Positions 6,161 to 63,929 of a DNA stretch of 64,000 nt are shown here, one piece after another. The DNA comes from Mangrovibacterium lignilyticum (GTDB lineage Bacteria; Bacteroidota; Bacteroidia; Bacteroidales; Prolixibacteraceae). Each line of letters starts with the position of its first letter. The first letter of the stretch is position 1. The notes below the pieces were generated by a model. The model saw only the letters and a list, made by a program, of their open reading frames with translations, was not told the origin of the DNA and did not search any database. The translations under genes and the position numbers were made by a program. Where the stretch lies: positions 1,572,021-1,636,020 of the forward strand of contig NZ_WKLH01000001.1 of the NCBI RefSeq assembly GCF_010882175.1, in the 5' to 3' direction.

Positions 6161-6482
6161 CTTCCTGTCCCATTTTTCGTTATCCTGTTACCAGTCGAAT
6201 CGCCCTGCCGGTTTTTTACCAGCCCTCTAATCCGGAAGCCTCCCTGCTAACATTTTGGCCTCCCTGCCCGAAAATTTCGCTCCCTGCTACCCCGGCAGTG
6301 CTCCCTGCCCGAATTTTTGTCGCCCTGCCCGGCAGGACGACCTCCCTTACCAGCAGGGAAGGTTACCCCACCAGCAGGGAGGCCGACTTTTCAGCAGGGA
6401 AGGGTGCCCCACCGGCAGGACGCCGAAAAAAGCAGCAGGGCGGGACTTTCTTTTGACAGGACTCACCGGTAATATAACAGGA
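6161..6482. repeat. Phased intergenic array A: CCCTG units, then inverted CAGGG units
   Basis: Ten units with the core (C)CCTG(C) are centred at 6165, 6185, 6205, 6225, 6244, 6264, 6284, 6305, 6325 and 6346 (two are degenerate, CCTC and CCTT). They are followed by seven units in the opposite orientation, core CAGG(G), centred at 6356, 6377, 6397, 6418, 6438, 6459 and 6480. The step is always 19-21 bases, two DNA turns, and the orientation flips at about 6351 across exactly ten bases. Several spacers are themselves dyad-symmetric about the midpoint between units, for example CGAAAATTTCG centred at 6274 and GGT-N6-ACC centred at 6366.5. This is not a simple tandem duplication, since spacers differ throughout. 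Confidence 0.8.
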
Positions 6483-6659
6483 AGGGCTTTTTGCGGGCAC
6501 AGCACCCACCGCCGACCTGACAAAACAGTGTTGACAATCGGCAGGCGGAATGCCGGGTTATCAGGATGGTACTATTTTGAAGCCTCGCCAGCCCAAAGAT
6601 TGCTTCTCCGGCAAAGCCGGATCGCAATGGCGGCCTCCATGTTTGCAGGAGAGTTGCGT

Positions 6660-6700
6660 GTCCCGTCATTCCGAGGAGAAACGACGAAGGGATCTCTACA
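6660..6700. repeat. Dispersed intergenic repeat remnant
   Basis: GTCCCGTCATTCCGAGGAG followed by AAACGACGAAGGGATCTCT resembles the widespread bacterial intergenic element that reads GTCATTCCGAG...GAAGGAATCT. A related piece (GGAATGACGCT) lies near 6006. I infer a decayed, non-coding genomic repeat. Only a whole-genome comparison would show its copy number. Confidence 0.4.
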
Positions 6701-6706
6701 AAAACA

Positions 6707-6737
6707 AAAGCCACCCTCCGAAACGGAAGGTGGCTTT
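6707..6737 (-). terminator. Hairpin downstream of mutB (second of two)
   Basis: Fourteen-base arms (6707-6720 and 6724-6737) with one mismatch and an AAA loop. The stem is AAAGCCACC-TCCG against CGGA-GGTGGCTTT and ends in T on both strands, so it can work in either direction. It lies beyond the first mutB hairpin. Confidence 0.65.
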
Positions 6738-6748
6738 CAATATTTCAG

Positions 6749-6781
6749 ATTCACCGGGTCACTTTGAGTCACCCGGTGAAT
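6749..6781 (-). terminator. Terminator hairpin directly after mutB
   Basis: ATTCACCGGGT (6749-6759) and ACCCGGTGAAT (6771-6781) are exact complements around an 11-base loop, 16 bases beyond the mutB stop codon on the minus strand. Confidence 0.7.
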
Positions 6782-6796
6782 TACAGGAATCAAGTT

Positions 6797-8950
6797 CTAT
6801 TCTTCGTGCGCTGAGATCAAAACCTCAAGGATTTTTTTACCGGCAGCAGCAACGCTTGAACCAGGTCCGAAGATGGCTACAACGCCTGCATCGTACAGGT
6901 ATTTGTAGTCCTGAGCAGGAATAACACCACCGGCAATCACCATGATGTCGTCACGACCCAGTTTCTTCAGTTCGGCGATAACAGCAGGAACCAATGTTTT
7001 GTGACCTGCAGCCAGGGAAGAAACACCCATCACGTGAACGTCGTTTTCAACGGCTTGCTTAGCGGCTTCTTCCGGCGTTTGGAACAAAGGTCCCATATCC
7101 ACGTCGAAACCAAGGTCGGCATAACCTGTTGCAACAACTTTTGCTCCGCGGTCGTGTCCGTCCTGCCCCATTTTAGCGATCATGATCCGTGGCTGACGGC
7201 CTTCCAATTCAGCAAATTTCTTTGCTAACTCCTGAGCTTCCTGGAAGGTTTTATCGTGTTTACTTTCGGCTGAATACACTCCTGAAATAGTTCTGATTAC
7301 AGCTTTATAACGGCCTGAAACTTTTTCGCAGGCATCTGAAATTTCACCTAATGAAGCACGCTTTTGAGCGGCTTTGATAGAGAGATCCAGCAAGTTACCT
7401 TCGCCGGTTTCGGCACATTTGGTAATTGCTTCCAGGGCTTGTTTCACATCATCCTCGTTACGCTCAGCACGCAGCTTATTCAAGCGATCGATTTGTGACA
7501 AACGTACAGCAGTGTTGTCGATATCCAAAATATCGATTGGATCTTCTTTTGCCAAACGATATTTGTTTACCCCAACAATTGTTTGCACACCACTGTCGAT
7601 ACGTCCTTGTGTACGGGCAGCAGCTTCTTCAATACGCATTTTAGGCACACCGGTTTCAATCGCTTTCGCCATACCACCCAGCTTTTCAACTTCTTCGATC
7701 AAAGCCCAGGCTTTGGTGTACAAGTCTTTTGTCAACGCTTCAACATAGTACGAACCGGCCCATGGGTCTACGCCACGGCAGATTTCAGTTTCCTGTTGAA
7801 TATACAACTGCGTGTTACGGGCAATACGAGCCGAGAAGTCGGTTGGCAATGCAATCGCTTCGTCCAGTGCGTTGGTGTGCAGCGACTGTGTGTGACCCAA
7901 TGCCGAAGCCATAGCCTCAATGGCTGTACGACCTACGTTGTTGAATGGATCTTGCTCAGTCAACGACCAACCTGACGTTTGCGAGTGCGTACGCAATGCC
8001 ATTGATTTTGGGTTTTTCGGGTTGAACTGTTTCACCAATTTCGCCCAGATCATACGTGCAGCACGCATTTTGGCGATTTCCATGAAGTGGTTCATACCGA
8101 TGGCCCAGAAGAATGACAAACGAGGCGCGAAAGCGTCAATGTCAATTCCGGCGTTGATACCGGTACGGATGTAATCCAAACCGTCAGCAAGGGTGTAAGC
8201 CATTTCGATGTCGGCTGTGGCACCAGCTTCCTGCATGTGGTATCCTGAAATTGAAATTGAGTTGAACTTCGGCATATTTTGAGAAGTAAACTCGAAAATA
8301 TCAGCAATGATTTTCATCGAGAACTCGGGTGGGTAGATGTACGTATTACGCACCATGAATTCTTTCAGAATGTCGTTCTGGATGGTACCTGCCAACTGAT
8401 CCATAGTTGCTCCTTGCTCCAAAGCCGTTACGATGTAGAAAGCCAAAACCGGCAATACCGCACCGTTCATCGTCATGGAAACAGACATTTTATCCAATGG
8501 AATTTGGTCGAACAGGATTTTCATATCCAGAATAGAGTCGATCGCCACACCAGCTTTACCCACATCACCAACAACACGAGGGTGATCCGAGTCGTAACCC
8601 CGGTGCGTTGCCAGGTCGAAGGCTACAGAAAGACCTTTTTGACCGGCAGCCAGGTTACGGCGGTAGAATGCGTTTGACTCTTCAGCAGTTGAGAACCCGG
8701 CGTACTGACGGATTGTCCAGGGACGCATGGGATACATCGCTGAGTAAGGTCCGCGAAGGAATGGTGGCAAACCGGAAGCAAAATTCAGGTGCTCCATGCC
8801 TTCCAAATCTTCTTTGGTGTAAACTGGTTTCACCGGAATTTGCTCCGGAGTCACCCAGTTTTTTTCAATTTTGTGTTCAGTAGCCCAGGCAGCGGCATCG
8901 GCTTTTGCCTGTGCTTCTTTAATATTTATATTTTTAAAATTCGGTTTCAT
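6797..8950 (-). CDS. mutB: Methylmalonyl-CoA mutase large (catalytic) subunit
   Basis: A 717-residue protein from the ATG at 8950. A TTG two codons earlier is possible but weaker. It interconverts succinyl-CoA and (R)-methylmalonyl-CoA with adenosylcobalamin, in propionate formation or use. The N-terminal TIM-barrel part carries [18 protein letters not shown], the substrate-loop region. The C-terminal B12-binding domain has the DxHxxG motif (D597-G-H599-D-R-G), whose histidine ligates cobalt. Length and motifs match the catalytic subunit of the bacterial heterodimer. The partner mutA lies upstream but is separated by a four-helix-bundle gene, so the operon is interrupted. Confidence 0.97.
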
Positions 8951-8983
8951 ATTCAATAGATTTTAGATTCTAGATTCTAGACA
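8951..8983. repeat. Seven-base tandem repeat flanking the four-helix-bundle gene
   Basis: On the minus strand this gap reads as tandem degenerate copies of TCTAGAA (TCTAGAA, TCTAGAA, TCTAAAA, TCTATTG). A looser version, TGTCTATTGTCTAAATTCTG, lies on the other side of the gene at 9342-9361. Such short AT-rich repeats around genes of this family suggest a shared insertion history (inference). Confidence 0.5.
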
Positions 8984-9334
8984 TTAGATTAAATTTTTCT
9001 GAAAAGCAATCAGCATTTTGACAATCTCCGAAGTTTTATCCAGTATTTCTTCTTTTTTACTCTCAGGGATATATTCCAGATCGCAGGCAAGAATCATCAA
9101 TGATTCAACTTCGAACAAAGATCCCTTTGTCATATCCAGAAAGTGATTGAAATCTTTATTGGTTCCTCTACCAGCTCCTTCTGCAACGTTCAACATCACA
9201 GAGACAGCCGCCTTTCGGGTTTGAGAAGTCAATCCATAAAGCTCTTCAGATGGAAATTGTTTGGTCACCAGGTAAACGTCCTTCACCAGGACTCTTGCCC
9301 GTTGCCAAATCTTTATTTCCCTGTAATTATGCAT
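8984..9334 (-). CDS. Four-helix-bundle protein (23S rRNA intervening-sequence type)
   Basis: A 116-residue protein beginning MHNYREIKIWQRAR and containing FPSEELYGLTSQTRKAAVSV and NVAEGAGRGTNKDF. These are hallmarks of the S23/IVS family, four-helix bundles first seen encoded inside 23S rRNA insertions and now known as stand-alone genes. Their molecular function is unknown. It sits precisely between mutA and mutB on the same strand, flanked by TCTAGAA-like repeats, and looks like an insertion into the operon. Transcription through it would be needed for mutB unless mutB has its own promoter. Confidence 0.9.
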   Translation of the reverse strand: MHNYREIKIWQRARVLVKDVYLVTKQFPSEELYGLTSQTRKAAVSVMLNVAEGAGRGTNKDFNHFLDMTKGSLFEVESLMILACDLEYIPESKKEEILDKTSEIVKMLIAFQKNLI

Positions 9335-9376
9335 CCTGAATGTCTATTGTCTAAATTCTGATGTCTTAATATCTGT

Positions 9377-11254
9377 TTATGCTATTCCCAATTTTGCATT
9401 ATATGCTTTCAAATCTTCCAGCACATTGCTCTTCACGTGAATGAAGTTTTCAATGCCTTTCGCTTTTAAATCATCCATGCAAGCAGGAGCACCAGCTACA
9501 ACGAAAATTCCTTCGCCTTTCATAGCGTCTAAAACAGCAGGAGCTAAGTCTACATATTCATCATCAGAACTACAGATCACAACAATCTCGGCACCGGCAG
9601 CTTTAGCTGCGGCAACACCTTCTTCAACTGTTGCAAAACCATTGTTATCCTTCACTTCGTAACCGGCAACAGCAAAGAAGTTGCAGGCAAACTGGGCACG
9701 AGCCTTACGGAATGTCAGGTTACCAATGGTCAACATGAATGCCAACGGACGTTTACCGGCTTTGGCAAATTTATCGGTAGCAGCACGCAGCTTTTCAAAA
9801 GCCATCGCGCCACGGTATGGTTTCAGTGTTTCAATTTCTGCATCTTCAGCAGTCAGATCAGTTGCGTCAAAAACAGCTTCATCCAGTTCCTTTTCCATTT
9901 TCTCCGTGAAATTCGGGAATTGGTTTGTTCCCAAAATATTTTCACGACGAGTGGCTACATTGATATCACGTTTTTTAGCCATCGCTTTAATTTCAGCTTG
10001 GATGAAACCTTCTTTTGCCGCTGCTAAGAAACCTCCTTTATCCTGAATAGTCAGGAACAGTTTCCAGGCTTCTTCAGCAATTGAAGCAGTCAACTCTTCA
10101 ATATAGTATGAACCGGCACCCGGGTCTACGATTTTATCGAAGTGCGATTCTTCTTTCAACAACAATTGTTGGTTCCGTGCGATACGATCAGAGAACGTAG
10201 TCGGATCTTCGTAAATCGCGTTGAACGGAAGCACAGCAATTGAATCGGCACCACCAAGAGCAGCACTCATCGCTTCAGTCTGGGTACGCAGCATGTTTAC
10301 GTAAGGATCGTAAACCGTTTTGTTCCATGTTCCGGTTTCAGCGTAAACATTCATTTTGCAGCAACCGTCGCATTTGGGTCCGTAAGCTTTTACGATTTGA
10401 GCCCACAACATACGACCTGCACGAAGTTTCGCGATTTCCATGAAGTAGTTCGCGCTAACGCTAAAATTGAACTTCATATTTTTGGAAACGGCGTTCACTT
10501 CCAGACCGGCCTCAGTCAAGGCTGAAAGATATTCAGCACCCTGAGCCAATGCAAAAGCTAATTCCTGAACTGCAGAAGCACCCGCGGCTCCGTAGCTTTT
10601 CGCGTTAACAGCGACCACTCGGTATTTCGGTAAGTTGGCTGATTTTTCAATCAGGTGTTTCACTTGCTCCACCGAACCTTCGAAGCCGTTTTTCATGCGA
10701 CCGTAAAGCAGGTAATTTCCGAAAGGATCGCAAGCAACTGATGCGACAACATTTTTCGGATCCCATTTTCCGGCTAACACATAATCAGCAAAGCTTTCTG
10801 CGATTTTGTTGGTGTAGCACTTGGCAACAAAGTTTACCTCTACCGACTCCAGGCAAATACCTTCGAGCAACACTGCCATGTCGTCTTTGGTAACATTGAT
10901 GCACTCATTAAAAACAAAGCCCAACGAGGTCACACCTTTCATCAATACGTCCAGTGCTTTCTTGTTGGCCTCGGCCAAATCTTTTACGATGATGTTCTGG
11001 CGAACATACCAATCGTTGTCATTTGTCTTGTTACCCCGAACAAATGGAAACTCACCGGGTAAGGTGTCCAGGTAGTTCAGGCTTGTCAAGTCTTCCTGAC
11101 GGTAATACGGTTGAACGGAGAAACCTTCGTTTGTCCTCCAGACCAGCTTGCGGTCGAAGTCAGCGCCTTTCAGGTCAGCAGTAATTTTTGCTTTCCAATC
11201 TTCGCTACTGACAGGAGGAAATTCTTCAAAAAGTTTGTTATATTTTTCTGCCAT
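9377..11254 (-). CDS. mutA: Methylmalonyl-CoA mutase small subunit
   Basis: A 625-residue protein from the ATG at 11254 (MAEKYNKLFEEFPPVS). The frame runs open to 11284 but would need a TTG start lying inside the promoter element. It is the non-catalytic partner of MutB: a related TIM barrel (for example GTWNKTVYDPYVNMLRTQ) and a degenerate B12-like domain in which the DxHxxG motif is absent (LTIGNLTFRKARAQF instead). It supports the catalytic subunit structurally. It is first in the operon, followed by the four-helix-bundle gene and mutB. Confidence 0.95.
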   Translation of the reverse strand: MAEKYNKLFEEFPPVSSEDWKAKITADLKGADFDRKLVWRTNEGFSVQPYYRQEDLTSLNYLDTLPGEFPFVRGNKTNDNDWYVRQNIIVKDLAEANKKALDVLMKGVTSLGFVFNECINVTKDDMAVLLEGICLESVEVNFVAKCYTNKIAESFADYVLAGKWDPKNVVASVACDPFGNYLLYGRMKNGFEGSVEQVKHLIEKSANLPKYRVVAVNAKSYGAAGASAVQELAFALAQGAEYLSALTEAGLEVNAVSKNMKFNFSVSANYFMEIAKLRAGRMLWAQIVKAYGPKCDGCCKMNVYAETGTWNKTVYDPYVNMLRTQTEAMSAALGGADSIAVLPFNAIYEDPTTFSDRIARNQQLLLKEESHFDKIVDPGAGSYYIEELTASIAEEAWKLFLTIQDKGGFLAAAKEGFIQAEIKAMAKKRDINVATRRENILGTNQFPNFTEKMEKELDEAVFDATDLTAEDAEIETLKPYRGAMAFEKLRAATDKFAKAGKRPLAFMLTIGNLTFRKARAQFACNFFAVAGYEVKDNNGFATVEEGVAAAKAAGAEIVVICSSDDEYVDLAPAVLDAMKGEGIFVVAGAPACMDDLKAKGIENFIHVKSNVLEDLKAYNAKLGIA

Positions 11255-11281
11255 AATGTAACTGTTAAGAAAATCAGGGGG

Positions 11282-11289
11282 CAAAATTA
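11282..11289 (-). promoter_or_regulatory. -7 promoter element of mutA
   Basis: The minus strand reads TAATTTTG, an exact TAnnTTTG match, 28 bases before the mutA ATG at 11254. No clear -33 TTTG is visible at the usual spacing. It supports the choice of the downstream start. Confidence 0.45.
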
Positions 11290-11534
11290 GTGGTTTTTAA
11301 GTATAGAATCCCATAAATAGTCAAGTTTTTAACAGCTTACTAACAAAAGTCAGTGTTTGATTTTCAATGTTTTACATATCGAAATCTCTACATGTATCCA
11401 TTTCCCAAATTCACTTTTAGCGCCGAACAACAACCCATTGATTAACATTTATTTAGCGAGCATAATTTCAGACAAAAATGCCTTTTTTTCTCTCATTTTC
11501 AAGCCAATTCGTATATTAACCATTTGTTAAAATT

Positions 11535-11566
11535 GAGAAGCCCCTTGCCAAAGGAAGAGGCTTCTC
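11535..11566 (-). terminator. Terminator of the efflux operon
   Basis: GAGAAGCCCCTT (11535-11546) pairs with AAGAGGCTTCTC (11555-11566) with one G-U pair on the minus-strand transcript. It lies 25 bases beyond the tolC-like stop and is followed in that direction by CAATTTTAAC. Confidence 0.7.
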
Positions 11567-11590
11567 GTATTCATCCTGTAACATGAAAAA

Positions 11591-12919
11591 CTACTGATAT
11601 AACTTTTCTCCGGTAGCGTGTTTCAGCTGATAACCGGCTAACAGATAGTCGATTTTTGTTTTGATTAATTCCAACTTACTGTCCTCCAAATTTGTGGAAG
11701 CGTCCAACAAATCAAGGTTTGTAATAGTACCCGACCGAAAGCTCACTTCCGCTAGCCTGTAGCCTTCGTTTGCTTGTTCAAATTGCATCTCGACCTGTTC
11801 TATTTTCAGTTTTGCCGCTTTGAGGTCTTCTATTGATTGAATCACTTCTTGCTTAACACCTTGTTTTGCCGATTCGGTTGCATAACGCAACTCTTCTTGT
11901 TTCGCTTGCTGAAGTGCCAGCTGATGTTTTGTTTTCGATGCACTGTAAATTGGAACCTGAACGCCTACGCCGACAGTGAAATTCGGTCTGATCTCCTGAA
12001 TATCCGGTTCAAACCCGTTTTTTACGCCAACCGTTGCTAAGGCGGAAATACTTGGATTGACCTGTGCATGAATCGCATTTGCCTGTAGGCTGGCAATATT
12101 TTCCTGTTCCTTTGCAATCTTAATTTGATCGCTATTGGCAAAAGCCTGCTCCAAAGCTTGCCCCAACTCTGCTTGAACAAGCAGCTGAGACAGCTCTTCA
12201 GGAAATTTTACCTGTGAATCAAAGTCGAGCCCAACCAAGGTCGACAAAACAGCCAATTCCTTTGTCCGAAGTGCCTCTAAATCGACGCGTTTACTTTTCA
12301 ATTTCGAAATACGGACTTGTGTCGAAAGCAGTTCGTATTTGGTCGACGTGCCGGCATCCAGCTTTTTAGTCACCGTCTGCTTATGTTCTTGCAGAGTTGC
12401 CATTTCTTCGTCATTGATTTCGATCGCATTTTGTAGAAATACAACCTGAAAATAGGAATTAATAAGCTTCAGACTCAACTGTTCCTGCAACTGTTCAATC
12501 GACTCATTCAGCAAAAGTTTTCGCGCTTGCTCAACAGCAACCAATTTGCCGGTACGCCCAAAATCGTACAGCGTTTGTTCGTAATTGATGCCTGCACTTA
12601 TATTATCGGCAGGGTTCAACTCTGCCTCTCCTATTCCCGGAAGATCAAATTTACTAATCGGTCCAACCCGGGTGTAGGATGCCCCCCCGGTGACCATCGG
12701 ACGCAAAGCTGACTGAACCAGCTGCATTTGTTCATCGGCCTGCACCAGCGACTGCTGCGCCTTCAACACAGCCGGATTGTTTCGAATCATTTGCTGCAAC
12801 AGGCTATCGAGTTCATATTGGCCGGAGCTACCTGCAGCCAGTGAAAAACCGGATGCACACAACCAAAGCAACACCGCCCCAAGTGTATTTTTCAGATATA
12901 ATCGTGTCATATTTTTCAT
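11591..12919 (-). CDS. TolC-family outer membrane efflux protein
   Basis: A 442-residue protein with a signal peptide (LLWLCASGFSLAAG, cleavage near residue 29). It has long heptad-rich helices typical of outer membrane factors, with two internal repeats: LLQQMIRNNPAVLKAQQSL early and LEQAFANSDQIKIAKEQE in the middle. It would form the trimeric exit duct of a tripartite pump. It is the last gene of the operon tetR-emrA-emrB-tolC, starting about 30 bases after the transporter gene. Alternative ATG at 12910. Substrate specificity is not evident. Confidence 0.9.
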   Translation of the reverse strand: MKNMTRLYLKNTLGAVLLWLCASGFSLAAGSSGQYELDSLLQQMIRNNPAVLKAQQSLVQADEQMQLVQSALRPMVTGGASYTRVGPISKFDLPGIGEAELNPADNISAGINYEQTLYDFGRTGKLVAVEQARKLLLNESIEQLQEQLSLKLINSYFQVVFLQNAIEINDEEMATLQEHKQTVTKKLDAGTSTKYELLSTQVRISKLKSKRVDLEALRTKELAVLSTLVGLDFDSQVKFPEELSQLLVQAELGQALEQAFANSDQIKIAKEQENIASLQANAIHAQVNPSISALATVGVKNGFEPDIQEIRPNFTVGVGVQVPIYSASKTKHQLALQQAKQEELRYATESAKQGVKQEVIQSIEDLKAAKLKIEQVEMQFEQANEGYRLAEVSFRSGTITNLDLLDASTNLEDSKLELIKTKIDYLLAGYQLKHATGEKLYQ

Positions 12920-35567: not shown

Positions 35568-35882
35568 CTGTATAGCCTGTTTTGACGGCTGGATGAATCG
35601 TTGGGAAAGCTGTATAGCCTCCCGTTACGCCTGTATGACCTCCGGTGCGTTCTGGATGAGCTCCCGTTACGCCTGTATTGCCTTTGGGAAATCCTGTACA
35701 ACCACTTGTTACGCCTGTATAGCCTTCCGGAAAAGCTGTATGAGCACTCGCGAGCCCTGTATGACCTCCCGTTCAGTCTGGACGAGCTCCTGTTACGCCT
35801 GTACGACCTCTTGGAACTTCTGTATAGCCTTCCGTAAATGCTGTAAGACCTCTCGTGATCCCGGTACAGACTGCCGGAAAAC
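35568..35882. repeat. Phased intergenic array B: 15 units of exactly 21 bp
   Basis: Units starting CTGTAT or CTGGAT recur every 21 bases without a single indel, at 35568, 35589, 35610 and so on to 35862 (15 units). The first ten bases follow CTGTATRRCC. The other eleven vary strongly, roughly TYCCGKWAMGC. Some variable halves are self-complementary, such as TTCCGGAA in unit 8 and CTCGCGAG in unit 9, centred half a period from the conserved core. Units are too divergent for recent slippage, yet spacing is strictly kept. Confidence 0.85.
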
Positions 35883-36024: not shown

Positions 36025-37407
36025 TTACGGCTTAATGTTTTGGTTCATGTGAAAAATATTGTCCGGATCGTACTTGGCTTTCAGTTTGGCCAAACGTTCG
36101 TAGTTCGGTCCGTAAGCTGCTTTAACACGGTCCTGCTCCTCTTCTGTCATGAAATTGACATAAGCGCCGGCCGAAGCAAAAGGTTCAGATGCTTTAAAGA
36201 ACTCACGCGACCACCCGATACATTTGTTATCATCGGCCTGGTTCTCCCAACGTCCGTGAACGTTCATCACAAATTTCATATCACGACCGCTGTAAGCCAT
36301 GGCATCAGCCGGAACGTCATTTAATTTACCGCCAACTGCACCGATAAAGATCTCGCAATGTGGAGACGGCATTTTACCGGCATATTCAATCATCGCATCA
36401 AACAAGCCATCACTCAACGAAGTGAAATTGTGTGATTTCCAATAGTTGCGGAATCCGGGAGTCAACAACGGATCAAAGGCTTGTTGCCAGCCTGTGTAAG
36501 GTGCCATTCCCAAGTGTTCGCCAACAGGATCGCCAAATTGACGAATCGGGTTTACTAAGTTTTCGCCACTTGCGGCATCACCAAAATGACAGATAGCCAT
36601 TACAACCACCTCGGTACCATGAACCGATTCGGGGAGGAATGGCAGGGGAGGCGCTTTACGCATCACAACCCAGTTATTAAATTCTTCGGGTGTTGACAAA
36701 ATATAATCGCGATACTGCTCCAGAATCTGTTTCGCTTGCGAAAAAGGAAAGACAATCAATCCGGAAAAGACCTCCGTTCCGATGTAATGCAAGTCAAACT
36801 CAAACTGGGTGACAATACCAAAGTTTCCACCGCCACCGCGAACAGCCCAAAACAAGTCGGTGTTTTCAGTCGAACTGGCATGTAGCATCACTCCTTCGGC
36901 AGACAAAACATCGACCGAGGCCAAATTATCGATCGTCATACCATGTTTCCTCGACAACCAACCAAAGCCACCACCAAGTGTCAATCCGGCAATCCCCGTT
37001 GTTGAGTTGATTCCCACCGGCATTGCCAAACCAAACTTTTGACATTCCTGATCGACATCGCCTAAGGTGGCACCGGGTTCAACAAATGCTTTCTTCTTAC
37101 CGGCATCGACACGCACCTGTTTCATTTGAGAAAAATCAATCAGCAATCCGTCGTCGCATAGCGAATTACCGGCAATATTATGTCCGGCACCACGGATTGA
37201 AATCTCCAGATCATTTTCCTTGCCATAACGAAGTGCCAATTGGGCATCGGCTGCCGCAGCACACTGAACGATGACAGCTGGTTTCCGGTCAATCATGGCG
37301 TTCCAGATCTCGCGCACCTCGTTATATTCCTTGTCTGCAGGCATAACTACCCGACCCTGAACTTTTTTCTTTAGGGATTGAACTGTTTCAGATAATGTTT
37401 CTTTCAT
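36025..37407 (-). CDS. FAD-linked oxidase (berberine-bridge-enzyme type)
   Basis: A 460-residue flavoprotein. The FAD-binding PCMH domain has ISIRGAGHNIAG, whose His is the usual covalent flavin attachment site, and INSTTGIAGLTLGGGFGWLSRKHG. In bicovalent enzymes a Cys sits where INSTTG stands here, so attachment is probably by histidine alone. The BBE domain at the C-terminus ends YDPDNIFHMNQNI, as in the family. Substrates range over sugars and phenolics. It follows a small ABM-like gene by 21 bases on the same strand. Confidence 0.9.
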   Translation of the reverse strand: MKETLSETVQSLKKKVQGRVVMPADKEYNEVREIWNAMIDRKPAVIVQCAAAADAQLALRYGKENDLEISIRGAGHNIAGNSLCDDGLLIDFSQMKQVRVDAGKKKAFVEPGATLGDVDQECQKFGLAMPVGINSTTGIAGLTLGGGFGWLSRKHGMTIDNLASVDVLSAEGVMLHASSTENTDLFWAVRGGGGNFGIVTQFEFDLHYIGTEVFSGLIVFPFSQAKQILEQYRDYILSTPEEFNNWVVMRKAPPLPFLPESVHGTEVVVMAICHFGDAASGENLVNPIRQFGDPVGEHLGMAPYTGWQQAFDPLLTPGFRNYWKSHNFTSLSDGLFDAMIEYAGKMPSPHCEIFIGAVGGKLNDVPADAMAYSGRDMKFVMNVHGRWENQADDNKCIGWSREFFKASEPFASAGAYVNFMTEEEQDRVKAAYGPNYERLAKLKAKYDPDNIFHMNQNIKP

Positions 37408-42654: not shown

Positions 42655-42810
42655 AGAACAGCGCGTGGCCTTCACAAAAATGAAGTGGTTTTTTTGTCGA
42701 AACCACACGTGATTCCAGGCAAAACCACACGTGATTTCCAGCAAAACAACAGGTGGTTTTCACTAAAACCACAGGTGGTTTCGATCAAAACAACGCGTTG
42801 TTTCTGAATT
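42655..42810. repeat. Phased intergenic array C: palindromic AAACCACnnGTGGTTT units
   Basis: Palindromic units close to AAACCAC-nn-GTGGTTT are centred at 42708.5, 42730.5, 42752.5, 42774.5 and 42795.5. The centre pairs are AC/GT, AC/GT, AG/GT, AG/GT and a CAACGCGTTG variant. Two worn half-units (GCGCGTGG and AAGTGG) precede, near 42664 and 42684. The step is 21-22 bases in the intact part. Each unit is a near-perfect 16-base dyad with no loop, which suits dimer binding to DNA rather than an RNA hairpin. Confidence 0.75.
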
Positions 42811-55969: not shown

Positions 55970-55984
55970 CGTGTAAATTTTCTG

Positions 55985-57323: not shown

Positions 57324-58058
57324 ATGGAATGGATAATTAGTGTTATTGTGATTCTGATGGCGTCTTTACTGAAAGGAATGACCGGATTTGGTTTCGCCTT
57401 GCTGGCTTTACCAATATTAACCATCTTCTTCCCCATGCAAGTCTTGGTACCGGCGATGACACTTTTCAACCTGTTTACCTCTTTATACATTCTGGCTAAC
57501 ATCAAACTAAAAATTGATTACAAATACCTCATTCCAATGCTACTGGCCAGCTTTATCGGGATACCGGCAGGCGTGCAAATTTTGCAATACCTGCCCGAGC
57601 GAACCATGGAATTGACCACCGGAATCTCAATTTTCTCACTCTCCATGGTCTTTTTGCTGAGTAGCAATAAAGAAGTTCCGGAATCGCGCAAAACGAAGCC
57701 AATTGTTTTCGCCGGCTTCCTAAGCGGATTAATGGGCTCAAGCATGTCAATCGGGGGGCCACCAATTGCGTTGGCGATGAACCGCAAAGGATACGCCAAA
57801 GAACGGTTTCGAAAAATGTTCGCTTTGATGAGCGTCATCAATGCTGTCATTGCCACGGTGCTCTATGTCTCCAAAGGAATGTTCCTGGCTTTTTCGCTGA
57901 AGTTCGCCATCTTTCTGTTTCCGGTGATGTTGTTGGGTTCGAAACTGGGCGATGTTCTTTCTAAGAAAATCAACCAGATCCAGTTCAAGCGCATGATCCT
58001 TTACCTGAATATGGTGTTGGGATTATTCATCGTTGCCCGCATCTTACTCCATCATTGA
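57324..58058 (+). CDS. TauE/SafE-family anion permease
   Basis: A 244-residue membrane protein with about eight helices. Both repeats of the family are visible: MTGFGFALLALPIL in the first half (K-G-x-T-G-F-G) and SGLMGSSMSIGGPPIALAM in the second. Family members export sulfite or organosulfonates, or import others. The substrate is unknown. It stands alone before the metal ABC operon. Confidence 0.9.
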   Translation: MEWIISVIVILMASLLKGMTGFGFALLALPILTIFFPMQVLVPAMTLFNLFTSLYILANIKLKIDYKYLIPMLLASFIGIPAGVQILQYLPERTMELTTGISIFSLSMVFLLSSNKEVPESRKTKPIVFAGFLSGLMGSSMSIGGPPIALAMNRKGYAKERFRKMFALMSVINAVIATVLYVSKGMFLAFSLKFAIFLFPVMLLGSKLGDVLSKKINQIQFKRMILYLNMVLGLFIVARILLHH

Positions 58059-58135
58059 AAATCGTCTTCGTGTTCAACAAATCAGGTCCTTTCCGGTTAA
58101 TAGTCGGGTGAACAAGATAATTCCATCCGACTTAT

Positions 58136-58143
58136 TATCTTTG
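58136..58143 (+). promoter_or_regulatory. -7 promoter element of the zinc ABC operon
   Basis: TATCTTTG is an exact TAnnTTTG match, 31 bases before the znuA-like ATG at 58174. A Zur-type operator is not obvious. Confidence 0.45.
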
Positions 58144-58173
58144 AATTGAAAATTGAGAACACAGAAAACATTC

Positions 58174-59040
58174 ATGAGAAAACTTTTAGCCGTCATATTG
58201 ATAGCCATATTGGGCTGTACCGGCCCTCAAAAATCGGATAAACCAACCGTTGCTGTTACCATTCTGCCGCAAAAATATTTTGTCGGGAAAATTGCCGGCG
58301 ATCTGGTTGAAGTCAATGTTCTGGTGCCACCGGGAGCGAGCCCGGAGTTATATGCGCTGATGCCTTCGCAAATGACCGGTTTATCGACAACCCTGGCTTG
58401 GCTGGGAATCGGGAAAATCGGGTTTGAAGAGGGCTGGGTTGATAAAATACAACAGAGCAGTCCCAAACTAAAGTATTTTGATACCTCGAAACAAGCCGAT
58501 TGGATTGCTGCGGAAGAAGAACAACATGGCGACCACGTGCATTTGCATGGTGTCGATCCGCACCTCTGGTCCGCTCCGGATGAAGTAAAAAAGATTGCCG
58601 AAGAAACTTACAAAGCCCTGGTTCAGGTTTTGCCCGGGCACAAACAAGTGCTCACGGCCAACTATGCCAAATTTCAAGCTGAAATAGACTCGCTGGATGC
58701 TGAACTGAAAGCCACCTTCGACCAATTACCATCGAAGAAATTCCTGATCTTTCACCCTTCCCTCACCTACCTGGCGCGCCAATACGGCTTGGAACAGGTG
58801 GCAATGGAACTGGACGGCAAAGAACCTTCACCCAAACACCTGAAAGATTTGGCTGAATTGGCGAAAAAAGAAAATATAAAAGCCATTTTTGTACAAAAGG
58901 AATTCAACATGGATAATGCACGGCAAATGGCCAACGAAATTGGCGGTGAAGTCATCCAAATTGATCCCTTAAATGAAAACTGGGCTGACGAACTGCGGAG
59001 CATCGCAAGCAAAATTGCCGAGGCAGAACATTTGCAGTGA
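58174..59040 (+). CDS. znuA: Zinc/manganese ABC transporter substrate-binding lipoprotein
   Basis: A 288-residue cluster A-I binding protein from the ATG at 58174 (a longer frame starts at 58153). The lipoprotein signal ends at LGCTG. Metal-site features are DPHLW after a histidine-rich loop GDHVHLHGVD, the FHPSLTYL histidine, and late Asp in IDPLNENW. The first ligand position, usually His in G-A-S-P-H, is Glu here (PPGASPELY). It delivers zinc or manganese to the permease encoded downstream. Specificity for zinc is inferred from the His loop. Confidence 0.88.
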   Translation: MRKLLAVILIAILGCTGPQKSDKPTVAVTILPQKYFVGKIAGDLVEVNVLVPPGASPELYALMPSQMTGLSTTLAWLGIGKIGFEEGWVDKIQQSSPKLKYFDTSKQADWIAAEEEQHGDHVHLHGVDPHLWSAPDEVKKIAEETYKALVQVLPGHKQVLTANYAKFQAEIDSLDAELKATFDQLPSKKFLIFHPSLTYLARQYGLEQVAMELDGKEPSPKHLKDLAELAKKENIKAIFVQKEFNMDNARQMANEIGGEVIQIDPLNENWADELRSIASKIAEAEHLQ

Positions 59041-59078
59041 TCAATCGCATTAGCAGCAACAAGAAGCAAGCAACCAGC

Positions 59079-59849
59079 ATGAACAAACTGCTCGAAATAA
59101 AGAACCTTACTGTCAGTTACGACCACGATGTGATCCTGAAGGATGCCAACCTGGTTGTTGAGAAGGATGACTTTCTGGGCGTGATTGGGCCCAACGGAGG
59201 TGGCAAAACCACGCTGATCAAAGCCTTGCTGGGCTTGGTAAAACCGGCGAAAGGGGAAATTGTGTTTCACATTCCCGAAACCCGCATTGGCTACCTGCCG
59301 CAAATTAACCAGATCGACAAGCGCTTTCCAATTACTGTGCTCGATGTGGTGCGTTCCGGCAAAACCGACCGCCGCAGCTTCAGTCTTTTCAGCAATAGTA
59401 AAGAAGAGATTTCCCACGCTGACAGCCTGCTCAAAGAGATGGGTGTGTTGCATTTGCGCGACAAAGCTATCGGAGAATTGTCGGGCGGACAAATGCAACG
59501 CGTGTTCCTGTGCCGCTCGCTGATGAACCGTCCGGAACTGCTGATCCTGGATGAACCCGACACCTTTGTCGACAACCAGTTTGAAAGCGAACTGTACGAT
59601 AAGCTGAAAGAATTGAACGAGCGCATGGCCATCATCCTGGTGTCGCACGATGTGGGAACAATTTCCTACTATGTGAAAACCATCGCTTGTGTCAACCGGG
59701 GAGTGCACTACCACCCAAGCAACGTTATCAGCACCGAGCAGCTGGCCTCGTACAACTGTCCGCTACAAATTATCACACACGGCGAAATACCGCACACCGT
59801 ATTAAGCTTGCACGAAAACCACGATCATAACCATGGGCACCATCATTGA
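59079..59849 (+). CDS. znuC: Zinc-type ABC transporter ATPase
   Basis: A 256-residue ATPase from the ATG at 59079. GTG at 59037, overlapping the preceding stop, is a weaker alternative. Walker A is GPNGGGKTT, the signature is LSGGQMQRVFLCRSL, Walker B is LLILDEPDTFVD and the switch His is in VSHDVG. The tail ends HENHDHNHGHHH, a histidine-rich extension that probably binds zinc. It overlaps the permease gene by 17 bases. Confidence 0.93.
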   Translation: MNKLLEIKNLTVSYDHDVILKDANLVVEKDDFLGVIGPNGGGKTTLIKALLGLVKPAKGEIVFHIPETRIGYLPQINQIDKRFPITVLDVVRSGKTDRRSFSLFSNSKEEISHADSLLKEMGVLHLRDKAIGELSGGQMQRVFLCRSLMNRPELLILDEPDTFVDNQFESELYDKLKELNERMAIILVSHDVGTISYYVKTIACVNRGVHYHPSNVISTEQLASYNCPLQIITHGEIPHTVLSLHENHDHNHGHHH

Positions 59850-60669
59850 TTTATTTCACTACGACTTTTTCCTGAACGCCTTTTGGGCCTCGCTGTTCGC
59901 GGCGATTACCTGTGGTATTGTGGGAACCTACATTGTTGCCCGACGCATCGTTTTTATCAGCGGCGGTATCACCCATGCCTCGTTTGGCGGCATCGGAATT
60001 GGTTACTTTCTGGGCTGGAATCCGTTATTTGGAGCAGCTATCTTTTCGGTGCTTTCCGGGCTGGGCATTCAATATTTCACCCGGGCCGGGCGGCTTCGCG
60101 AGGACTCCTCCATCGCTATTTGGTGGTCGCTGGGCATGGCCATCGGGATCATTTTTATTTACTTGTCGCCTGGCTACGCACCTAACCTGATGAGTTACCT
60201 TTTTGGAAGTATCCTCACTGTTTCGTCAACCGAAATATGGATTATGGCCGGGCTATCGCTGGTACTGGTCGCCTTTTTCACCTTAATGTACCGGGCCATT
60301 TTGTATGTCGCCTTTAACGAAGAATTCGCCAAAACTACCGGATTACCCGTCAACCTGATCAACTACATCCTCATCAGCCTGATCGCTGTGACCATTGTGA
60401 TGAACATCCGTGTCGTCGGCATCATCCTGATCATGTCGCTGCTGACATTGCCGCAAGCCACAGCCAACCTGTTCACACACGACTTCCGCCACATGATGCT
60501 CTACTCGGTCGGTTTCGCTTTTATCGGCTCGTTTGCCGGCCTGCTTTTCTCGTTTTATGCTGACATTCCTTCGGGCGCCTCCATCATTTTCACCCTCGTT
60601 TTGCTCTTCGGAATCATGAAAGGCGTAACTTTATTGCTGAATCGCCAAAAACGAAACCATGCCCGCTGA
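59833..60669 (+). CDS. znuB: Zinc-type ABC transporter permease
   Basis: A 278-residue ABC-3 family permease with about eight membrane helices. GIVGTYIVARRIVFISGGITHASFGGIGIGYFLGW is the typical cytoplasmic coupling region (split here: ARRIVFISGGITHASFGG). RVVGIILIMSLLTLPQATA follows in the second half. It completes the importer with the upstream binding protein and ATPase and overlaps the next small gene by 11 bases. Confidence 0.93.
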   Translation: MGTIIDLFHYDFFLNAFWASLFAAITCGIVGTYIVARRIVFISGGITHASFGGIGIGYFLGWNPLFGAAIFSVLSGLGIQYFTRAGRLREDSSIAIWWSLGMAIGIIFIYLSPGYAPNLMSYLFGSILTVSSTEIWIMAGLSLVLVAFFTLMYRAILYVAFNEEFAKTTGLPVNLINYILISLIAVTIVMNIRVVGIILIMSLLTLPQATANLFTHDFRHMMLYSVGFAFIGSFAGLLFSFYADIPSGASIIFTLVLLFGIMKGVTLLLNRQKRNHAR

Positions 60670-60838
60670 CGAACATATCATTTGCCCGAACTGCGGAACC
60701 CAGTTCATGAAAGACGAACTGGAACGCGACTGCAGCAACTGCTTTGCCTGCACGGGTTGCGAATGCTACATCTGCTCCAATTGCAGACACGAGATTGTGG
60801 TGAAACCCGCAAAAAAACCGGGACTCAAAACGGATTAA
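60659..60838 (+). CDS. Small Cys-rich zinc-binding-type protein in the zinc ABC operon
   Basis: A 59-residue protein starting at ATG 60659, inside the last 11 bases of the permease gene (translational coupling). It starts MPADEHIICPNCGTQFMKDE and has nine cysteines at positions 9, 12, 25, 28, 31, 34, 36, 39 and 42, in CPNC, CSNCFACTGCEC and CSNC patterns, then a Lys-rich tail. It could bind two zinc ions. I do not recognise a named family. The operon context suggests a cytoplasmic zinc acceptor, buffer or sensor linked to uptake (inference). Confidence 0.75.
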   Translation: MPADEHIICPNCGTQFMKDELERDCSNCFACTGCECYICSNCRHEIVVKPAKKPGLKTD

Positions 60839-60945
60839 AATCGCGCCGGCGATTGAAAACTTCAGCTTGATCTGGTTAAGCTTTAGCAGAATTTGGTAAA
60901 TTCGGGCGACAAAAAGAATTACCAAACATACCCAACACAAACCCC

Positions 60946-62037
60946 ATGAACATTTTCAAAGGAACACTCCTTATTGTGGCCGCTTTGCTTTTCGCGGCAG
61001 CATGTACCGACAAACACGATTTAGTTGTCAAGTATTCGAGCCCCAACATCGATTATTCGGGACGGATTGACACAACCACACACCCCGCTGCCGATTTATT
61101 CTGGTCGGGCACCAGCATCCGGATTAATTTTGAAGGTGAATCCATTTCAGCCTTGTTTCAGGAAGAGAGAGGCGATAACTATTACAATGTGTTCGTCGAC
61201 AACGACAGTGCCTTTGTGCTGCGCCCGGATACAACGAAGCAATACTACCAACTGGCTTCGGGTCTGGCAGCAGGAAAACACACCGTAGAACTATTCAAAC
61301 GTACCGAATGGGACCGCGGCGTGAGCACCTTCTATGGTTTTCGGATTAGCGGAAACGCGAAGGTGCTCCCCAAAGCCGACGCGAAGAAGCGGAAAATAGA
61401 GTTTTACGGCAACTCCATCACAGCCGGTTATGCCGTTGACGATTTCTCGGGGAAAGACCGTTCCGACAGCATCTTTACCAACAACTACGAGAGCTACGCA
61501 CGGATTACAGCGAGCCATTTCGACGCCGACTACCGATGCATATGCAAAAGCGGCATCGGAATTACCGTCAGTTGGTTTCCGCTGATCATGCCGGAGATGT
61601 ATAACCGCTTAGACCCGAACGATCCGGACAGCCGCTGGGATTTTTCGCAATACACCCCCGATGTGGTTGTGATCAACCTGTTTCAGAACGATTCGTGGAT
61701 CGTGAACATCCCGGACAACGCGGAGTTTAAGCACCGCTTTGGCACAGAAGCGCCGAGCAAAGAATTCATCGTTCAGGCTTATGCCGATTTTGTGCGCTCC
61801 ATTCGCCGGGAATACCCCAATGCCCAAATCATCTGCGCCCTGGGAACCATGGACGCCACCCGCGAAGGATCGGAATGGCCGGCTTATGTGCAGCAAGCCG
61901 TCGACCAATTGAACGACGCGAAAATATACACCCATTTCATACCTTTTAAAAAGACACCGGGACACCCCAGTATTGCCGAACAGCAAGAAATGGCCAACAG
62001 CCTCATTCAGTTTATCGACGAGCGTATTGCCTGGTAA
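60946..62037 (+). CDS. CE2-type SGNH carbohydrate esterase lipoprotein
   Basis: A 363-residue lipoprotein (signal ending AAACTDK, cysteine 20). An N-terminal beta-sandwich with W-S-G-T-S-I-R-I-N-F-E-G precedes an SGNH hydrolase domain. The catalytic Ser is in FYGNSITAGYAV, and the His is in KTPGHPS near the end. The combination is typical of CE2 esterases, which deacetylate xylan or glucomannan or related glycans. It is probably on the cell surface. It is not in an obvious PUL. Confidence 0.85.
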   Translation: MNIFKGTLLIVAALLFAAACTDKHDLVVKYSSPNIDYSGRIDTTTHPAADLFWSGTSIRINFEGESISALFQEERGDNYYNVFVDNDSAFVLRPDTTKQYYQLASGLAAGKHTVELFKRTEWDRGVSTFYGFRISGNAKVLPKADAKKRKIEFYGNSITAGYAVDDFSGKDRSDSIFTNNYESYARITASHFDADYRCICKSGIGITVSWFPLIMPEMYNRLDPNDPDSRWDFSQYTPDVVVINLFQNDSWIVNIPDNAEFKHRFGTEAPSKEFIVQAYADFVRSIRREYPNAQIICALGTMDATREGSEWPAYVQQAVDQLNDAKIYTHFIPFKKTPGHPSIAEQQEMANSLIQFIDERIAW

Positions 62038-62060
62038 ACGGCAACACCGATAGCAACGGG

Positions 62061-62096
62061 AAAGGATCCGATCTTTGAAACAGATCGGATCCTTTT
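62061..62096 (+). terminator. Terminator after the CE2 esterase gene
   Basis: AAAGGATCCGATCT (62061-62074) and AGATCGGATCCTTT (62082-62095) are exact 14-base complements around a seven-base loop, followed by further T, 24 bases after the stop. Confidence 0.9.
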
Positions 62097-62192
62097 TGTT
62101 TCCTTCAACCCGATGCCCTAACCGGCCCCCGTAACCCATTCAACTCTTGTGCTATAAAACACAAATGGCCATTTTTCTGAATACCATGCCGC

Positions 62193-62209
62193 TAGTTTTG
62201 ATAAATTAG
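62193..62209 (+). promoter_or_regulatory. Promoter block before the HNH gene, repeated at 63386
   Basis: TAGTTTTG (62193-62200) matches TAnnTTTG. Bases 62194-62209 (AGTTTTGATAAATTAG) recur exactly at 63386-63401, and both copies are followed within a few bases by ACAAAC-GAAA. This could be a conserved promoter of related units. The second copy leads into the array D region without a nearby gene. Confidence 0.4.
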
Positions 62210-62278
62210 ACGTCAACAAACCGAAAAACAGTTCCTGAAGTTGAGAACAAATCAAACTAACCAATAAATCGCAATAAT

Positions 62279-62584
62279 ATGGTACGAAACTACAACACCG
62301 ACAAAGAAGGGAATTCATGGTCGGAAGAAACAAAACGAGCGGTATGGGACAAAGGACGAAACATTCCGGAATTTGCACCCGACCAATGGAGATGGGACGT
62401 CGCCGGCAAGGTGATGAAATACGACGACTACGGCGACCGCCAGTCGGAATACGGATGGGAAATTGACCACATCGACCCGGTTGCAAACGGAGGTACCGAC
62501 GATATCAGCAACCTTCAACCCTTAACCTGGAAACACAACACGCATAAGGGCGATATCCTCGACTGGACTGTTTCGAAAGGATAA
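62279..62584 (+). CDS. Stand-alone HNH endonuclease
   Basis: A 101-residue protein, essentially one HNH domain. The motif is in YGWEIDHIDPVANGGTDD (the H of DHI is the general base), followed by NLQPLTWKHNTHKGD with the second Asn/His. The N-terminus (SEETKRAVWDKGRNIP) resembles the lead-in of HNH domains in secreted toxins and phage-like nucleases. No immunity, restriction or secretion partner is adjacent. It could be a solitary nuclease or a remnant of a larger system. Confidence 0.85.
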   Translation: MVRNYNTDKEGNSWSEETKRAVWDKGRNIPEFAPDQWRWDVAGKVMKYDDYGDRQSEYGWEIDHIDPVANGGTDDISNLQPLTWKHNTHKGDILDWTVSKG

Positions 62585-62733
62585 CAGGCGATTCGATTCG
62601 TTTAAACTAAATTTGCCTGATCATTATAAGTTAATCCCTCGCCAATTCGAACTGACGGCGGGGGATTCATTTTGCATTTTTGTTAACTTGCGCCGATTAC
62701 ATCAGTTAAAATAGCCAACGCCGAAACCACGCC

Positions 62734-63216
62734 ATGTTTAAAGTTGAAACAAGCAAAACCATCGCCCCCGAAATGCTGCAAAGCGGCCGTTCATCACTTC
62801 CCGAACGGATCGGGGCCAAGTTGAAGGCAATCGGTTTCATCAACATTACGCAGCAAGGCAATAAAATTTCGTTTCACGCCAACCTGACAGATCCTGATGC
62901 GGAATCCTTTCAACGCAAATACGGCAACGGCGAGCTCTATATTTCCGACGGCGCGCAGCCCACGATTCGCGTGGTAACCGACAAAACCAGAGACGCCGTA
63001 TATTCCGTTTTGCTGAGCCTGCTTATTTTTATCGCCGCTAACTACGGTTTCATTTTTCGTTCCGATGTTGGCCTGGCTTTCATCCTGGTGTTCAATGCTA
63101 TTCTTATTCCGGTGAGCGTGATGCAGGTGCTGCGCAACCGCTGTAACTGCAAAGGCAAACAGGAAGAATTGCTCGATTTGCTCGAAGAAAAACTAAAAGC
63201 AGACAGCCAGCAGTAG
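62734..63216 (+). CDS. Hypothetical protein with a two-helix membrane segment
   Basis: A 160-residue protein. The first 90 residues look soluble and beta-rich, with QGNKISFHANLTD and ELYISDGAQPTIRVV. Then two hydrophobic segments (AVYSVLLSLLIFIAANYGF and LAFILVFNAILIPVSVMQV) are followed by a charged tail (EELLDLLEEKL). A CNC motif follows the second helix. No recognisable family. It is independent of the HNH gene by about 150 bases. Confidence 0.65.
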   Translation: MFKVETSKTIAPEMLQSGRSSLPERIGAKLKAIGFINITQQGNKISFHANLTDPDAESFQRKYGNGELYISDGAQPTIRVVTDKTRDAVYSVLLSLLIFIAANYGFIFRSDVGLAFILVFNAILIPVSVMQVLRNRCNCKGKQEELLDLLEEKLKADSQQ

Positions 63217-63929
63217 CCAAGGCCGCAGAAATTCCCGTCAAGTTCCCCAAAATCATTGAAATAGCGAACGAATGTTTGCCCGGAAAAGGTGATTATTTTT
63301 TCGTTTATGCAGTCAAACGCCCTCTTCGTCACGCCAAACAGCTCGTTCATGAAAAAGACGATCAAACATAACTTAACCCTCATTCAGTTTTGATAAATTA
63401 GCTATAACAAACTGAAAGATAACAAACAGGACCAACCAGATGCTTTCCACATGCCCGAGATTAGACCACGAAAGCCGCATTAGCTTCTGAATTTTTCTGC
63501 CACGCACGATTTGAAGAGACGATTTTTCAGTTCGGATTAAACGTTTGCCCCAATTTCCGGGATCTCAATTTTTCATGAAGAGCAGTTTTAGCGCAAACAA
63601 GTCGCTGAAAATTTCGAAAACGCCAAAAGACGACGCGCGATGCTGTCGAAAATTTCGACAACACCAAATGGACCCTTTTGGCCCCGTCGAAATTTTCGAC
63701 AGCATGAAATGGACCCATTTGGTGCTTTCGAAATTTTCGAAAGCATGAAAAGACTCCGATTGGCGCTTTCGAAATTTTCGACAGCATGAAAAGGACCCGA
63801 TTGGCGCTTTCGAAAATTTCGACAAGAAAACAACGGTCGCAAACAACAACATTGAATTTTCAGGATTCCCGGCAGGGATCGATCTCTTGCCGTGAACCGC
63901 CATATTTTTTCACTTTAAAAAAAAGCACG
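63217..63929. other. Gene-free region with promoter copy and phased array D
   Basis: About 700 bases lie between two plus-strand genes. It contains a second copy of AGTTTTGATAAATTAG (63386-63401) and array D (63600-63826). Open frames crossing array D are products of the repeat. 63217-63380 and 63420-63590 show no gene or structure that I recognise. The former has codon-like composition but no start. Confidence 0.7.
63600..63826. repeat. Phased intergenic array D: CGAAAwTTTCG palindromes every 41 bp
   Basis: Six palindromes CGAAA-w-TTTCG are centred at 63611, 63652, 63693, 63734, 63775 and 63816, a step of exactly 41 bases each time. The arms extend to ten bases at 63734 (GCTTTCGAAA-T-TTTCGAAAGC). 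Halfway between them, at 20.5 bases, lies a second imperfect dyad (AAATGG-AC-CCATTT at 63713.5, similarly near 63672.5). The array is therefore two alternating palindromes every 20.5 bases. Flanks such as GCATGAAA and GGCGCTTT are partly shared. Confidence 0.85.

Follow-up and report, generated by a model that had tools for sequence, protein, structure and literature searches.

Regularly pitched intergenic repeat arrays with several core families in the genome of Mangrovibacterium lignilyticum

Introduction

What kind of chromosomal element keeps its spacing while its letters change? The question is raised by a stretch of 64,000 nucleotides (hereafter the window) on a 1.89 Mb contig of the 5.63 Mb genome of Mangrovibacterium lignilyticum, in which four gaps between genes hold arrays (A to D) of short repeated units. 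A first-pass annotation of the window described the four arrays as unrelated, with unit centres every 20–22 bases, and proposed selection for protein sites on one face of the helix. Here we report that arrays of this kind form a class that is present throughout the sampled quarter of the genome, and that they may be helically phased rows of sequence-specific putative sites for cooperative DNA-binding proteins, with several core families, a reading to which we assign a probability of roughly 0.5. Comparisons were made with three genus mates (sister species), namely Mangrovibacterium marinum DSM 28823 (G001), G002 and G003; arrays and stretches outside the window are designated by L numbers.

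Pitch of the arrays and genome census

The shared pitch of 20–22 bases is borne out in the window. When the autocorrelation of each locus at lags 1–66 was compared with 1000 dinucleotide shuffles of that locus, all four arrays proved significantly periodic: array A with z scores of 6.5 at 41 bases and 4.3 at 20 (since the highest shuffle z is 4.2, the 20-base peak barely exceeds its shuffles), B with 14.3 at 42 and 11.4 at 21 (highest shuffle z 5.3), C with 8.6 at 22 and 7.0 at 44 (4.3) and D with 14.7 at 41 (4.8). The fitted pitches are 20.1, 21.0, 21.9 and 20.4 bases respectively, that of D referring to half its unit, and Tandem Repeats Finder also lists A (41, right half), B (21/42), C (22) and D (41). 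The coordinates first given for the arrays were correct to within a few tens of bases. An Rfam search of the whole window matched no family.

The census covered the window and 60 stretches of 20 kb, on contigs C8 and C9 only, amounting to about a quarter of the genome; 57 of the stretches were roughly evenly spaced and three were picked for motifs of array D. Genes were called with a simple purpose-written script, and intergenic intervals of at least 110 bases were scanned in segments of up to 160 bases for periods of 8–80 bases, at a threshold of z > 5. There were 28 matches in 389 intervals, with an open reading frame (ORF) running through the matched segment in 10 of them and absent from 18. 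Three matches (L154, L166 and L170) were removed as probably coding, leaving 25 arrays: A to D, three from the stretches chosen for D motifs, and 18 from the 57 spaced stretches (1.14 Mb). Provided that the remaining contigs are similar, the last number scales up to about 90 arrays in the whole genome, all densities here being sample-based estimates.

Every one of the 25 retained arrays has its best period at 21–22, 41–43 or 62–63 bases, close to two, four or six helical turns, out of the 8–80 tested (21 three times, 22 twice, 41 eleven times, 42 six times, and 43, 62 and 63 once each). Heptad-coding DNA can also yield periods of 21, 42 and 63, and coding heptad repeats were considered and rejected as an explanation of the class: apart from the three matches removed, 15 of the 25 arrays have periods that are not multiples of three and are for that reason free of any codon effect, and all 15 fall within 6 allowed of 49 possible values (p = 2e-14). 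When 16 arrays were translated, only the L154 frame was convincing by eye; L021 overlaps a 128-codon ORF and is retained with that caveat. The removed match L170:3684-3950 is, judged by eye, probably an overlooked gene for a cysteine-rich repeat protein.

Shuffling of intergenic sequence with matched composition, the check by which the shared period might have been exposed as chance, yielded none above z 5 in 221 Markov-shuffled intervals (0 of 97 from C9 and 0 of 124 from G003, the two samples shuffled), and five 50-kb stretches of Escherichia coli K-12 gave one match in 81 intervals, inside the annotated gene gfcA. Relaxing the threshold to z > 4 also admits periods of 12, 13, 24, 37 and 69, as noise would.

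Cores, spacers and symmetry

Array A consists of two opposed rows, CCCTGC cores at 6203-6323 and then GCAGGG cores at 6332-6435, with a flip between 6323 and 6332 (spacing 9); its core steps are 20–21, with one of 39 across a decayed forward core. The same design is seen in L159 (CCCTGTT/AACAGGG rows, steps of 20–21 with one of 40, flip 8), in M76 of M. marinum (CCTGTG/CACAGG rows, steps of 20 with one of 40, flip 28) and in L190 of G002 (CCCTGTG/CACAGG, steps of 20–21 with one of 40, flip 28), the last having three decayed middle cores of uncertain direction. Cores in direct orientation about two turns apart are found in B, L017 and L167 (21 bases).

The dyad centres of array D (63611, 63652, 63693, 63734, 63775 and 63816) are spaced exactly 41 bases apart, the left flank of the first dyad being decayed. 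The D family (41-base unit, CGAAAWTTTCG) recurs at C8:323.7k, C8:673.7k and C9:399.7k. In L016 it passes into a TTAAAWTTTAA family, with 82 (2 x 41) bases between the last D centre and the first centre counted for the new family; the TTAAAWTTTAA family stands alone in L020, and M. marinum has a related TGAAAWTTTCA family. Over these three families, in eight arrays from three genomes, the centre-to-centre step is 41 in 32 of 32 cases. Between families, positions ±4, ±5 and ±6 relative to the dyad centre change letter jointly on the left and the right (0 of 500 shuffles each), a count that is not a probability because the D-type sequences are related. Other families are ACTCGCGAGT (two loci, pitch 21), CTACC..GGTAG (three M. 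marinum loci, 41-base units) and CTAACCT, which by eye is common to L164 of M. lignilyticum and L382 of G003. Since several core families recur at two to four loci, the term 'locus-specific', used initially for the proteins that might bind them, is too strong.

With the units of an array laid over one another at its pitch, identity is 76–100 % in the best-conserved third of columns and 19–62 % in the worst third. These thirds are sorted by outcome, so only permutation p-values test the contrast between cores and spacers; permuting adjacent-unit matches over columns gives p < 0.05 for heterogeneity in 19 of 23 arrays or half-arrays, the contrast not being significant in L027, L034, L168 and Gm_L337. 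The cores are thus constrained in most arrays. Cores or spacers of the four arrays had been described as often palindromic; in a local dyad test (60 shuffles per array) C and D are significant, whereas the best scores of A and B lie within the shuffle range. Second dyads at the half-period, also put forward at first, are not independent evidence, because a periodic array with one dyad must mathematically have another half a period away.

Genomic placement

The genes flanking A to D are indeed on the same strand at each array, as originally described, but the class as a whole favours a different setting. The arrays of M. lignilyticum comprise 12 between convergent genes, 8 between co-oriented genes, 2 between divergent genes and 3 untyped, compared with 36, 214, 69 and 45 respectively among the other intervals (dropped matches included), and the excess of convergent settings (12 among 22 typed arrays, 36 among 319 typed other intervals) has a Fisher p of 3.6e-6. 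Convergent placement in M. marinum is in the same direction and not significant (3 of 10, p 0.16). Several arrays sit past a terminator-like hairpin, as judged by eye. The features of the window are collected in Table 1.

Table 1. Arrays of the window and genes beside them (window coordinates)
Feature	Position	Strand	Description
Array A, forward row	6203..6328	+	CCCTGC cores at 6203, 6242, 6262, 6282, 6303, 6323; decayed core at about 6222
Array A, reverse row	6332..6440	-	GCAGGG/GCAGGA cores at 6332, 6353, 6374, 6394, 6415, 6435
Methylmalonyl-CoA mutase (MCM) gene	6797..8956	-	Array A on its 3' side; M. marinum orthologue converges on array M76
Array B	35568..35882	+	About 15 CTGTATRRCC units, pitch 21.0; 3' of the berberine-type oxidoreductase gene
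Flavin adenine dinucleotide (FAD)/berberine-bridge-type oxidoreductase gene	36025..37407	-	Array B on its 3' side; M. marinum orthologue converges on M76
Array C	42690..42805		Palindromic AAACCACnnGTGGTTT units, pitch 22; 3' of sprA
Array D	63600..63826		Six CGAAAWTTTCG dyads, a second, weaker dyad midway
DUF6261 gene	from about 63932	+	Directly after array D

Two side observations concern genes. G003 carries two copies of sprA about 8 kb apart (G003:C1:2850772-2860316), 72% and 84% identical to the C-terminal part of the product of the window sprA. ARAGORN calls a transfer RNA with a stop-type anticodon at 61893-61986 of the window, inside an esterase gene, and this call is almost certainly false.

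Arrays in related species

Orthologous places in the genus mates were compared for five loci. The MCM and oxidoreductase genes, which lie about 27 kb apart in M. lignilyticum and carry A and B, converge in M. marinum on the single array M76, and in G002 an array lies on a contig that holds parts of both genes. A and B, first described as unrelated, lie 3' of genes whose M. marinum orthologues share one array, and to that extent they are not wholly unrelated. The central flip and the 20–21 pitch are present at this locus in M. lignilyticum, M. marinum and G002, even though the core differs in most units (CCCTGC in array A, CCTGTG in M. marinum). The alignment of the M. marinum array with that of G002 spans 257 columns along the row of cores, 178 of them identical and 79 substituted, and is free of gaps, whereas five intergenic pairs outside arrays, from the same two species, contain 5–221 gapped bases (few pairs, one aligner); with lax gap costs the array pair has 0.12 gap events per substitution, as against 0.33–0.83 in these controls. 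Array A aligns less well, and with gaps, to the M. marinum and G002 arrays. At a second locus, beside an Omp85 gene, the units, whose letters have diverged, measure 41–42 bases in M. lignilyticum and 41 in M. marinum, and there is no array in G002 or G003. Arrays come and go, yet the pitch has been kept at both loci where they persisted.

The M. marinum census (16 stretches, of which at least two, L325 and L341, were picked as holders of known arrays) gave 18 matches in 112 intervals, 10 of them of the 20/21/41/42 type. The stretches L077-L153 gave 31 in 434, of which 8 have periods of 20–23 or 40–42 (L123, an 8-base run, among them), 5 have a period of 11 and 2 of 33, the rest being various; since these stretches also show other periods, the exclusive periods are a trait of the M. 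lignilyticum genome and not of the order. Some of them follow the spacing rule with other letters, for example L126 (TCCACAC..TGTGTGGA at 22) and L143:14290-14449, from a metagenome-assembled genome (MAG) of the Paludibacteraceae, an 11-base array whose unit turns step by step from TCTAGTTCCTA into CGTGTATCCTA while the pitch stays the same. A sample at the level of class and phylum (20 stretches, of which the 16 of sufficient length were scanned) gave 7 matches in 105 intervals, namely four 7-base runs and periods of 21, 22 and 63 once each, and G005/G013 gave one match in 19 intervals (period 42, with an open frame).

Some repeats of other make were encountered in passing. In L080:8440-8640, from a Prolixibacteraceae MAG, a run of 11-base units [CATACCTCTTT]n[CAAATTCGAAA]n and the mirror-image run behind it make up an almost perfect inverted repeat, considerably longer than 150 bases, with fold z values of -13.8 and -15.8. 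L327, L330, L338 (M. marinum), L347, L350 and L356 have a period of 14, often with 21 and 28; by their look these are 7-base units and a different kind of repeat.

Comparison with known repeats

The arrays fall within the broad kind of regular intergenic repeat arrays, where we file them. A literature search over titles and the beginnings of abstracts, mostly of openly accessible papers with few subscription papers covered, gave no description of such arrays, in keeping with the remark in the first-pass annotation that no element of this behaviour was known. Variable-number tandem repeat (VNTR) and minisatellite arrays consist of tandem units and expand by whole units; the arrays resemble them in this, but keep their cores and pitch where their spacers have diverged. 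Plasmid iterons and par centromere arrays (e.g. F sopC) are rows of cores about two or four helical turns apart, with letters of their own in each system, and the direct cores of B, L017 and L167 correspond to this layout. The present arrays differ in being chromosomal and, by the extrapolation above, in numbering about 90 per genome, and no replication initiator, Rep or Par gene was found among 27 scanned proteins, mostly of neighbouring genes.

Repetitive extragenic palindromes (REPs) and bacterial interspersed mosaic elements (BIMEs) are, in the accessible text of two papers, like the arrays in being intergenic, at convergent or downstream sites, with palindromic units, several families per genome and regular spacing (PMC3733652, PMC2817692), and 20 of 22 typed arrays do lie between convergent or co-oriented genes. 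The arrays differ in that some cores are not palindromic, in the single geometric rule across unrelated cores and in the two-turn pitch, and only one Y1 transposase gene was found in M. lignilyticum. The GTAG/CGTC tag expected at each REP palindrome is lacking in most arrays: GTAG/CTAC occurs 0–3 times per array and not at all in 18 of 25, and CGTC/GACG recurs by unit only in L034 (12), L027 (9) and, in part, L157b (5). Some D units read CGTCGAAA, and the CTACC..GGTAG family of M. marinum does contain GTAG. Palindromic repeats of other spacing (52–62) occur by some Y1 genes of these genomes. Arrays of the TAACTGA heptamer are intergenic direct repeats known in some Bacteroidetes too; as far as the available part of their description goes (PMC4679880), they differ in having one fixed heptamer in contiguous 7-base units that lie, in the main genome, mostly just upstream of start codons. 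A survey of close repeats and palindromes in prokaryotes (PMC4060949) does not describe such a pitch in its accessible part. Membership of the arrays in the REP/BIME, iteron or RNA-hairpin classes is not supported.

Possible function and alternatives

Because letters are kept in the cores and free in the spacers, and the steps are even and helical multiples, the arrays would align bound proteins on one face of B-DNA. One bound dimer (or monomer) would cover about two helical turns, and neighbouring proteins could touch only when all cores face the same side of the DNA; selection would then keep the core letters and the pitch (20–22 bases, or two or three times that per unit) and let the spacer letters drift. 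Each core family, found at one to a few loci, would presumably be read by its own protein. Most rows lie in gaps on the 3' side of genes, with convergent genes as the favoured setting. Given that placement, a structural role (nucleoid folding, insulation, or a boundary for supercoils or transcription) would be likelier than promoter control. Matches to HU-HIG in the four genomes (6 in M. lignilyticum, 4 in G001, 1 in G002 and 2 in G003) are only a hint toward binders. The proposed selection for pitch gains support from the exclusive periods, the contrast between cores and spacers, the 32 of 32 steps, the gapless pair and the retention of pitch, with altered letters, at two orthologous loci, but the part of that argument that used half-period dyads is in part a mathematical necessity.

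Several results weigh against protein rows of this sort. Although sites on one helix face are a natural inference, the 27 scanned proteins have no family in common (a GDSL lipase domain occurs twice). The local dyad test gives no significant result for A, B, L017, L022, L036 and L039. The pitch was kept in relatives at two orthologous loci, but at the other three of the five, those of C, L034 and L159, the relatives compared have no array at the corresponding place; the exceptions are a 23-period stretch (L197) near the L159-gene orthologue of G002 and an 8-base run by the sprA orthologue of M. marinum. G003 has no array at any of the five loci, that of MCM and the oxidoreductase included, and its census gave only 4 matches in 124 intervals, two of array type, one of these in a stretch chosen for D motifs, and the others at 14 and 52. 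In M. marinum 8 of the 18 matches have other periods (14 four times, and 8, 9, 18 and 30). The M. marinum/G002 pair can also be aligned, at lax gap costs, with 65 substitutions and 8 gaps of one base each that offset one another, and the Omp85 locus shows 16 gap events for 63 substitutions (0.25), little under the non-array controls.

Some of the same geometry would suit BIME-like supercoil sites, at which gyrase or another topoisomerase wraps the DNA between convergent genes, so that phasing matters and letters matter little. REPs are intergenic with a preference for convergent and downstream sites, and their targeting by gyrase in E. coli is reported in the accessible text of PMC3733652; the placement of the arrays agrees with this, as does a strong A+T/G+C periodicity near 10.5 in B, L017, L036 and L037. 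This periodicity is weak, however, in D, L020 and L039, the highly conserved cores of 6–11 bases exceed the needs of shape recognition, and the core of array A departs from the M. marinum core in most of its units simultaneously; we regard the explanation as unlikely.

A purely mutational origin, in which tandem duplication in whole-turn steps is followed by decay with no selection, could draw on the recently duplicated units in L157 and L034 and on the fact that the longer units are multiples of the pitch. It is disfavoured, and we consider it improbable: core columns are far better conserved than spacer columns, which are often near random, so neutral decay of duplications does not explain the arrays; core orientation flips midway in A-type arrays; one array pair has held its length across species despite 79 substitutions; and no such arrays were seen in 250 kb of E. 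coli.

Equally improbable, in our judgement, is that the arrays were spread or built by Y1/HUH transposases of the REP-associated tyrosine transposase (RAYT) type. Of the 14 Y1_Tnp genes found in M. lignilyticum, M. marinum and G003, 11 were examined, and 6 of these have an array with a period of 21, 22, 41 or 42 no more than 2.5 kb away, where rough arithmetic from the sampled array densities predicts about one. Two of the six (L375 and L376 of G003) prompted the idea, though, and without them the count is 4 of 9; the M. marinum stretches behind the density estimate were partly chosen for known arrays; Y1_Tnp genes number one in array-rich M. lignilyticum against seven in array-poor G003 (six in G001); and some Y1 genes have repeats of their own at other spacing (52–62). 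Identity with RAYT repeats was considered and rejected, the repeats near Y1 genes not being the same, and the proximity remains a lead that is partly post hoc. In M. marinum (L371:2700-4400) a Y1 transposase gene is preceded by many GGTGCAGCGCACC palindromes with periods of 52–58, a REP/RAYT-like cluster.

That the arrays act in RNA, as 3' untranslated-region hairpins or binding sites on transcripts, accords with their position downstream of genes and with the folding of C, D, L012, L016, L021, L028 and L034, which for one strand or both is more stable than that of shuffles (z -4.0 to -6.8; 40 shuffles per array). Because B, L017, L022 and L039 fold like shuffles on both strands (z -1.4 to 0.4), RNA structure is rejected as the common denominator, and a role in RNA is very improbable: a flexible RNA has no need of exact 20–21 base steps, and several arrays lie, by eye, beyond the terminator-like hairpin. 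That the arrays are decoy iterons or centromeres taken over from plasmids or phages, as the similar spacing (about two or four turns) of such plasmid repeats might suggest, has hardly any likelihood, since D is unmatched in plasmids or phages and B and the L037 family are unmatched in plasmids, and matching viral contigs number one each for the D and L037 patterns and none for the M. marinum family. Matches of the A-core pattern in viral contigs, among those listed, were discarded, the pattern being too short to mean anything.

Significance

Phased rows of protein sites remain our preferred reading of the individual arrays. Beyond them, we tentatively suggest, at somewhat less than even odds, a chromosomal element defined by geometry and not by sequence: some 90 arrays per genome with many unrelated core families and a two-turn pitch, sometimes in opposed rows, with core letters that turn over between species at an unchanged pitch, serving as platforms for phalanx-forming DNA-binding proteins that would organize the gaps between convergent genes. 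Conserved spacing would then be a character by which a class of repeats is recognized, and searches by sequence similarity would miss such elements. If phased rows generally organize the chromosomes of Bacteroidales, the arrays would be ready probes with which to fish out the proteins and, if the suggestion is true, they could serve in tests of the way in which bacteria cope with supercoils and with transcription that collides.

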